This document shows positions 4,071 to 6,525 of a stretch of 34,727 bases of DNA, one piece after another. Origin of the DNA: Spirochaetota bacterium (lineage in GTDB: Bacteria; Spirochaetota; Spirochaetia; JABEVK01); the NCBI GenBank assembly GCA_020049045.1, contig JAIFLN010000165.1:1-34727 (forward strand), in the 5' to 3' direction. Made by a program: the position numbers and the translations under genes. How positions within the stretch are numbered: position 1 is the first letter of the stretch; every line of letters starts with the position of its first letter. The notes under the pieces were generated by a model that made no database searches, was not told the DNA's origin, and was given only the letters and a program-made list of their open reading frames with translations.

Positions 4071-4107
4071 TCTTGCAACTTTCAAGTTCAACTTGAAAGT
4101 TGCAAGA
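4071..4107. repeat. 37-nt perfect inverted repeat (18-nt arms, 1-nt centre), candidate operator
   Basis: TCTTGCAACTTTCAAGTT-C-AACTTGAAAGTTGCAAGA; arms 4071-4088 and 4090-4107 are exact reverse complements. Confidence 0.95.
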
Positions 4108-4121
4108 ATCTGCCCTACTAT
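4093..4121 (+). promoter_or_regulatory. Candidate promoter TTGAAA-N17-TACTAT, -35 inside the palindrome
   Basis: TTGAAA at 4093-4098, 17-nt spacer, TACTAT at 4116-4121, ATG at 4128. Confidence 0.5.
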
Positions 4122-4127
4122 TGAGCC

Positions 4128-5318
4128 ATGATCCCTCGGAAAATCCAGCCCATCCTTCTCCAACGAGCTGCAGAGTATCCCATTGTCACGGTACTGGGTC
4201 CGAGGCAGGCCGGAAAGACGACGTTGGTGAGACAGACCTTTCCTGGGGCTTCCTATGCCAGTCTGGAAGACCCCGAGCTGCGGAACTGGGCCCAGAGCGA
4301 TCCCCGTGGATTCCTGGACCAGCATCCTACCCCTGCCATTCTGGATGAGATCCAAAGGGTTCCGGAACTGTTGTCGTACCTGCAGGGCCGGGTGGATCAA
4401 CACGCCGGACACGGCCAATACATCCTGACGGGGAGCAATCAGCCGCTGTTGGGCCAGGCAGTGTCCCAATCGCTGGCAGGCCGCACCAGCCTGCTCACCC
4501 TTCTGCCGTTTTCGTTGGAAGAGCTGGGGACTTCCGCACCGGACCGCGACCTCTGCCTGGTCAAGGGCTTTCTCCCGCGCATTCACCACGAAAATCAGCC
4601 CTGGCACCAGGCCTACCTCGACTACCTTTCCACCTATGTGGAGCGAGACCTGCGCCTGCTGATCCAGCTGAAGGACCTTTCCAAGTTCGAGATCTTCCTG
4701 CGGCTGCTTGCCGGGCGGGTGGGGCAGATTCTCAACCTCTCGGCGCTGGCCAACGACATCGGTGTGTCCTCGACCACCCTGGGCCATTGGCTAAGCGTCC
4801 TTGAGGCCTCGTTTGTTGTTTTCCGCCTGCCGCCCTACTTCAGCAACCTCGGCAAGCGGCTGGTGAAGAATCCTAAGGTCTATTTCACGGAACCGGGACT
4901 GGCGGCCGCTCTGCTTCAGATCGGCACTCCACAGCAGGCCTCCCGCGATCCTCTGATGGGGAATCTGTTTGAGAATCTCGTCGTGGTCGAAATCCTCAAG
5001 GCGCTTCTGAACCGGGGCCAACCGCCCCACCTGTCGTTCTACCGTGACAGCCAGGGCCATGAGGTTGACCTGATCCGCGAAGTGGAGAGAAGACCGGTTC
5101 CCCTCGAGATCAAGGCGTCGCAAACCTACGCTCCCGAAATGTCGCGCGGATTGGACTGGTTCACAAAGAACGTGCCGGGTACCTGGCCGGGATGCGTGGT
5201 CTACGGTGGTTCCGAAGTCCGCACGGCCCCCGGAGTCCAGGTGCTGTCCTTTTCTGAGTCGGCAAGGTGGGTCGATGAGGGGACTCCGGGTTTCGACAAT
5301 GACTCCCAAAACAAGTAA
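4128..5318 (+). CDS. AAA ATPase with DUF4143-type C-terminal domain
   Basis: 396 aa; Walker A GPRQAGKTTL, Walker B AILDEIQ, YILTGSNQ; C-terminal GHEVDLI...PLEIKAS resembling a PD-(D/E)XK-like core. Confidence 0.85.
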   Translation: MIPRKIQPILLQRAAEYPIVTVLGPRQAGKTTLVRQTFPGASYASLEDPELRNWAQSDPRGFLDQHPTPAILDEIQRVPELLSYLQGRVDQHAGHGQYILTGSNQPLLGQAVSQSLAGRTSLLTLLPFSLEELGTSAPDRDLCLVKGFLPRIHHENQPWHQAYLDYLSTYVERDLRLLIQLKDLSKFEIFLRLLAGRVGQILNLSALANDIGVSSTTLGHWLSVLEASFVVFRLPPYFSNLGKRLVKNPKVYFTEPGLAAALLQIGTPQQASRDPLMGNLFENLVVVEILKALLNRGQPPHLSFYRDSQGHEVDLIREVERRPVPLEIKASQTYAPEMSRGLDWFTKNVPGTWPGCVVYGGSEVRTAPGVQVLSFSESARWVDEGTPGFDNDSQNK

Positions 5319-6246: not shown

Positions 6247-6351
6247 TCTTTGTATTTTCGTTTGATACGTGGAACCCAGGTTCGGAGGCCTTGCTGAAAA
6301 CCCCATTGGGAATTTGATTCAATCCTGTCAGGGAGGTAGAATAGGAGAAAG

Positions 6352-6525
6352 ATGGAATTTCACTACACCTACCGGGACTACCGGGAGTGGCCCGACGATG
6401 AACGGTGGGAACTGATCGACGGCGTGGCTTATAACATGCGCCCGGCTCCCAGGACCGGACATCAGGACATCGCCGGCAACCCGACGGCCTCTTCGGCATC
6501 GAGATCACCTTTGAGCAGCGTCTGA
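6352..6525 (+). pseudogene. Truncated Uma2-family (DUF820, PD-(D/E)XK) endonuclease N-terminus
   Basis: SD AGGAGAAAG then MEFHYTYRDYREWPDDERWELIDGVAYNMRPAPRTGHQDIAGN, typical Uma2 N-terminus; similarity stops near 6480 and the ORF ends at TGA 6523-6525. Confidence 0.75.

Follow-up and report, generated by a model that had tools for sequence, protein, structure and literature searches.

The window, i.e., the whole 34,727-nt stretch of Spirochaetota DNA analyzed here, contains a perfect 37-nt palindrome at bp 4071–4107, immediately upstream of a gene for an AAA ATPase. The palindrome reads TCTTGCAACTTTCAAGTT-C-AACTTGAAAGTTGCAAGA. Direct reading bears out an earlier note on this DNA, which had described two 18-nt arms around a 1-base center. 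No further long perfect inverted repeat is found within the window, and none of 100 dinucleotide shuffles reproduces a match to the 37-nt palindrome. The features of the locus are collected in Table 1.

Table 1. Features of the palindrome–ATPase locus. Positions are those of the window; promoter numbering takes the A of the ATG as +1.
Feature	Position	Strand	Remarks and basis
Probable operator, 37-nt palindrome	4071–4107	.	Center at 4089, i.e., −39 from the A of the ATG; supported by homologous operators
Outer specificity box, index 3–5, CTT	4072–4074	+	Mirror at 4104–4106; covaries with residues 308, 309
Inner specificity box, index 13–15, TCA	4082–4084	+	Mirror at 4094–4096; covaries with residues 215, 216
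−35 element, TTGAAA	4093–4098	+	In right arm; −35 to −30; family position profile
−10 element, TACTAT	4116–4121	+	−12 to −7; spacer of 17 nt from −35 element
AAA_14 + DUF4143 protein, 396 aa, PADLOC PDC-S01	4128–5318	+	Pfam, PADLOC, AlphaFold2
Predicted winged helix-turn-helix	4737–4829	+	Helices 204–211 and 215–227, wing 231–234; AlphaFold2 secondary structure, fold neighbors
Codons S215, T216	4770–4775	+	First residues of predicted recognition helix; strongest inner-box couplings
Codons S308, Q309	5049–5054	+	Hairpin tip of predicted PD-(D/E)XK-like domain; outer-box coupling
PD-(D/E)XK-like motif, D314 ... E327-x-K329	5067–5114	+	Conservation among 288 homologues

The downstream gene product was expected to be an AAA/DUF4143 ATPase, and Pfam agrees: an AAA_14 domain (PF13173, E 9e-26) is followed by DUF4143 (PF13635, E 2e-44). 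The protein also matches seven PADLOC PDC-S01 models (best E 1e-98). An NCBIfam search with the protein gave 0 matches, and a sequence search of the PDB gave no relative. AlphaFold2, given the window protein and 18 viral-contig homologues, returned a pLDDT of 89.5. Two parts of the prediction matter below. A winged helix-turn-helix (HTH) is predicted, in which residue 215 starts the second helix (215–227), with the wing (231–234) following. In the predicted PD-(D/E)XK-like domain, residues 308 and 309 form a hairpin tip that joins strands 302–306 and 312–319, just before D314. The motif residues are strongly conserved, D314 being kept in 285, E327 in 269, and K329 in 271 of the 288 homologues.

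The window's 37-mer occurs once. The earlier note had proposed a genome-wide search with it; the inner 16-nt arm proved unique, with no second copy in the 3.97-Mb genome at up to two mismatches, and the homologous sites differ from it in sequence. Scanning a 257-Gb sequence collection with the inner 16-mer gave 116 hits, where about 120 are expected by chance. The only palindromic hit is in Bifidobacterium aquikefiri (L008:3125–3166), where this 16-nt arm (TTGCAACTTTCAAGTT..ACTTGAAAGTTGCAA) forms a near-perfect palindrome around a loop of roughly 11 nt. It lies between a gene for an amino-acid ABC binding protein and the permease gene that it precedes, and it has no DUF4143 neighbor. Sequence identity is thus the wrong search key, and it was abandoned. 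The note had looked to the identical 37-mer and held its absence upstream of all orthologues to be decisive, whereas the properties found conserved upstream of homologues are palindromicity, position, and register, not sequence.

The source genome has 23 DUF4143 (PF13635) matches. Many of these genes have a near-perfect palindrome at the same position ahead of the start codon, each of a different sequence; TTGGCAAATCCGGATTGACATTCCGGATTTGCCAA (L127) and GTGAATATTCGGAGTTGACCTCCGAATCTTCAC (L121), for example, are found upstream of P-loop codons. In the closest homologue (62% identity), the palindrome, TCCGGCAATATTCAAGTTGAACTTGAATATTGCCGGA, is again perfect and 37 nt long, with both arms altered symmetrically relative to the window. 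Homologues were gathered from relatives and from other lineages, mostly as assemblies. A palindrome score of at least 8 was reached by 48% of 145 family genes, compared with 8% of 138 control genes drawn from the same loci and 1.4% of shuffles. A detector relying only on the conserved half-site positions and symmetry, and making no use of the identity of the coupled bases described below, gave a score of at least 9 for 132 of 288 homologues versus 2 in shuffled upstream regions. With this detector, about half of the 288 family genes, including several in the source genome, show no operator. Thus, the operator is either not universal or differently built in those genes. Many Bacteroidales-type members likewise show no clear site under the start-codon and promoter assumptions used, and they may use another promoter geometry or spacing.

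Two observations on the wider family lie outside this set. In the source genome, paralogues from other DUF4143 subfamilies (loci L138, L139, and L133) have long perfect palindromes at or near the start codon, e.g., TAGCATCCTTCATGTATACATGAAGGATGCTA; these fall outside the modelled register and may represent a second operator type. In a relative, genome G015, the family has undergone a strong expansion specific to that lineage, with 42 DUF4143 matches in 5.7 Mb.

The promoter layout of the earlier note, with TTGAAA, 17 nt, TACTAT, 6 nt, and then the ATG at 4128, is correct in every coordinate. Transcription starts, for the window and the family alike, are taken from promoter geometry, and so are predicted. 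Because the −10 element spans −12 to −7, the −35 element −35 to −30, and the palindrome is centered at −39, the window transcript is predicted to be leaderless, with the A of the ATG as +1 and the palindrome untranscribed. The same arrangement recurs in the family. In 95 of 216 family genes, exactly 6 nt separate the end of a TANNNT from the ATG. With start codons chosen without promoter information, a −10 element at −12 to −7 is present in 54% of operator-bearing genes versus 6% of controls. Shine-Dalgarno-like sequences are rarer in operator-bearing genes (9%, versus 29% in controls). The palindrome centers cluster at −39, −38, and −37, with smaller clusters at −34 to −31, −20 to −18, and −11, all of which are positions at which a protein on the DNA would obstruct RNA polymerase. 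Across family sites, then, the symmetric site lies on the gene's own promoter and usually overlaps the −35 element of a leaderless promoter.

The operators have a common half-site register: variable positions 3–7, a conserved A-rich/T-rich segment at 8–12, variable positions 13–15, and conserved A16 and T18. The variable positions 3–7 and 13–15 agree across the dyad in 65–91% of cases, against 25–44% expected from composition. Of 100 strong palindromes, 89 are base-centered. About ten bases, i.e., one helical turn, separate the inner box from the outer. The smaller dyads nested within each arm, to which the earlier note drew attention, are indeed present in both window arms, but they are incidental, as they are complete in only 5 of the 264 arms of 132 homologous sites.

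The variable boxes covary with the protein. Correlating protein segments with operator similarity in a sliding-window, Mantel-type test proved uninformative, as gappy C-terminal columns dominated the result, and per-column mutual information took its place. Mutual information with average-product correction was calculated for each protein column against each half-site position, 6,354 pairs in all. For the 132 genes, the strongest couplings are T216 with index 14 (Z 15.6), S215 with index 13 (Z 14.0), and Q309 with index 4 (Z 11.2), followed by T216 with index 15 (Z 9.8) and Q309 with index 3 (Z 7.4); all remaining pairs are below 5. S215–index 13 and T216–index 14 were already the top two pairs in a first set of 81 genes. 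Relatedness does not explain the coupling, since it persists between proteins of 30–50% identity: there, S215, T216, and Q309 each stand far above the rest of the 260 columns, and index 13 agrees in 80% of genes with the same residue 215 versus about 30% otherwise.

The resulting residue-to-base code is chemically sensible. At 215, D, E, or Q goes with C; H, K, or R with G; and S, V, T, or N mostly with T. At 216, T goes with C; P, V, or S with A; and K or H with G. At 309, K or H goes with G, N with A, and T or Q with T. The window fits the code, S215/T216 being paired with T/C and Q309 with T. Predictions for left-out genes from the discovery genes had accuracies of 0.81, 0.83, and 0.65 (shuffled: 0.42, 0.27, and 0.33). 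For plasmid, phage, and viral-contig genes found afterwards, 12–15 genes per accuracy, prediction from all 132 gave 0.81, 0.53, and 0.92 (shuffled: 0.51, 0.26, and 0.47). That is, by covariation and by prediction, the specificity residues of the product's putative DNA-binding domain match the site.

Many homologues (L309, L310, L312, L314, L322, L330, L337, and L338) share a near-identical half-site core, CGGAGATT, and their loops, R-N-S-N/K-G-L-E, are identical or nearly so. Some operator specificities are thus common to several species, and cross-regulation might be possible.

Very probably, the ATPase-nuclease docks on the palindrome and in this way controls its own gene. The earlier note had offered an operator for autoregulation of the ATPase as one possibility, a proposal supported by homologous palindromes at the same promoter position, their symmetric change, and the covariation with predicted recognition-helix residues. 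Palindrome, position, promoter geometry, symmetric change, covariation, and held-out prediction together make a strong case at the sequence level. From them we infer binding and its consequences as follows. We consider it highly likely that the palindrome is a cognate operator, bound by the gene's own protein as a symmetric dimer with two reading heads per half-site, and that the protein represses the gene's own leaderless promoter. Two subunits would sit symmetrically on the operator. Within a half-site, the inner box would be read by residues 215 and 216, on the recognition helix of the winged HTH, and the outer box, one helical turn outward, by residues 308 and 309, at the hairpin tip of the PD-(D/E)XK-like domain. 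Because the boxes are one turn apart, a single subunit could read both from one face of the DNA. Binding would shut the gene off, as negative autoregulation; repression, rather than activation, is the proposed direction because the site overlaps the −35 element of a leaderless promoter. ATP state, a trigger, or titration would then release the protein from the operator. Operator and reading residues would have diversified together, with the result that paralogues in one genome have different sites.

Autorepression does not account for everything. The apparently intact nuclease motif is unexplained by pure repression, and some sites are centered at −34 to −31, −20 to −18, or −11 rather than at −39. 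A tentative elaboration, which we think possible though unlikely, gives the site two roles, as a switch for the promoter and as a substrate for the nuclease. The STAND-like ATPase would rest on its operator with the active site of its PD-(D/E)XK-like domain kept beside the outer box; an invader signal, or turnover of ATP, would free the protein, which would lift repression and at once license the nuclease; and private operators would keep the paralogues independent. If so, a very abundant candidate immune family would possess a programmable head for reading sequence, formed by a hairpin of the PD-(D/E)XK fold.

An alternative makes the palindrome a site that the nuclease domain recognizes, and possibly cleaves or uses for attachment, in a homing or mobile unit, its place on the promoter being secondary. 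Two features of the PD-(D/E)XK-like domain speak for this proposal: nearly all homologues retain its motif, and coupled residue 309 lies only five residues from D314. So does the occurrence of gene and site together in different neighborhoods, on plasmids, and on viral contigs, which also fits, in part only, the earlier note's idea of an attachment site travelling with the gene (viral contigs gave 0 homologues in a single-protein scan and 20 in an alignment-based scan). Against it, the sites lie at fixed promoter coordinates on the −35/−10 elements, and a half-site copy beyond the 3′ end is rare: only 3 of 76 genes have a 15–16/16 copy within 300 nt downstream, so that a mobile element with site copies at both ends of the unit is not what is seen. 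A neighbor-gene search for an empty, gene-less site found no comparable locus, leaving none for comparison. On balance, we regard a site serving primarily the nuclease as improbable.

The transcript strand has a strong predicted fold (z −6.1), as would suit an RNA hairpin acting in the 5′ region as attenuator, terminator, or mRNA stability element. Yet the promoter geometry, from which the start is predicted, places the site upstream of +1, and the covariation is with predicted DNA-reading residues. Moreover, arm mismatches are not enriched in the G-U type (0.17 versus 0.15 expected), which favors a DNA over an RNA element. A structured RNA, that is, a transcribed helix maintained with G-U pairs, was rejected on these grounds, and we give the hairpin hardly any credence. 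The palindrome might instead serve as operator for another regulator of the host, or be no more than a generic repeat or a chance occurrence, given that palindromic operators are common and that a few control genes also have palindromes. This reading is extremely improbable, as each paralogue has a different site, the window site is unique in its genome, and the site covaries with the gene's own protein.

The proposed autorepression resembles a known arrangement. Autoregulated winged-helix/HTH repressors and antitoxins act at a symmetric operator on their own −35/−10 elements, with specificity residing in the recognition helix and with diverging paralogues, and the window system appears to work alike in all three respects. 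What sets it apart is the predicted binder, a STAND-like AAA ATPase whose second reading head lies in a PD-(D/E)XK-like domain. The closest folds found by Foldseek are STAND and Orc/Cdc6-type AAA+ winged helix proteins: the archaeal ATPase 2qen (the best match), MalT (8bob), Apaf-1, and Cdc6/Orc1 on origin DNA (2qby); the phage-defense proteins Avs3 and Avs4 also match. Cdc6/Orc1 binds DNA through its winged helix, as predicted for the window protein. The likeness has limits, in that query TM-scores are only 0.2–0.4 and the window site is a promoter palindrome, not an origin.

The window protein shares its domains and PADLOC models with PDC-S01, the AAA_14/DUF4143 ATPases, a candidate defense family unvalidated in the literature. 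PDC-S01 is reported to be the fourth most common defense across prokaryotes, experimental validation being pending for most such candidates (PMC12988326), and in rumen genomes no other individual locus is reported to be as frequent (PMC13356809). Our search covered the open literature and found no operator, DNA specificity, autoregulation, or recognition code for DUF4143/PDC-S01; among 5.4 million open papers, DUF4143 was matched in a single one, and in none together with palindromes. The same AAA_14–DUF4143 pair is present in TT_P0211 of Thermus thermophilus HB27, whose RNA increases 6.6-fold in response to a plasmid, provided that the strain has Argonaute (PMC4406477). The authors tie several such genes to CRISPR transcription and propose no mechanism for TT_P0211 (PMC4406477). 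This response is suggestive, and only that, of such a gene being inducible. A related plasmid gene in L477 (strain SNM7-6) has no clear operator with our detector.

DUF4143/PDC-S01 proteins are among the most abundant candidate prokaryotic defense proteins, and our literature search turned up almost nothing on their binding or activity. Since each gene of the family carries its own probable ligand alongside it, and three residues predict specificity, the behavior of these proteins is directly testable. The arrangement suggests a way for dozens of paralogues to share a genome with no cross-talk between them, and it further suggests sequence reading as a possible function of a PD-(D/E)XK-like domain.

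Elsewhere in the window, at 6350–6480, a short reading frame (MEFHYTYRDYREWPDDERWELIDGVAYNMRPAP...) follows a PfkB gene and is apparently cut short. It appears to resemble the start of a Uma2/DUF820-type nuclease, and it is possibly a gene remnant.
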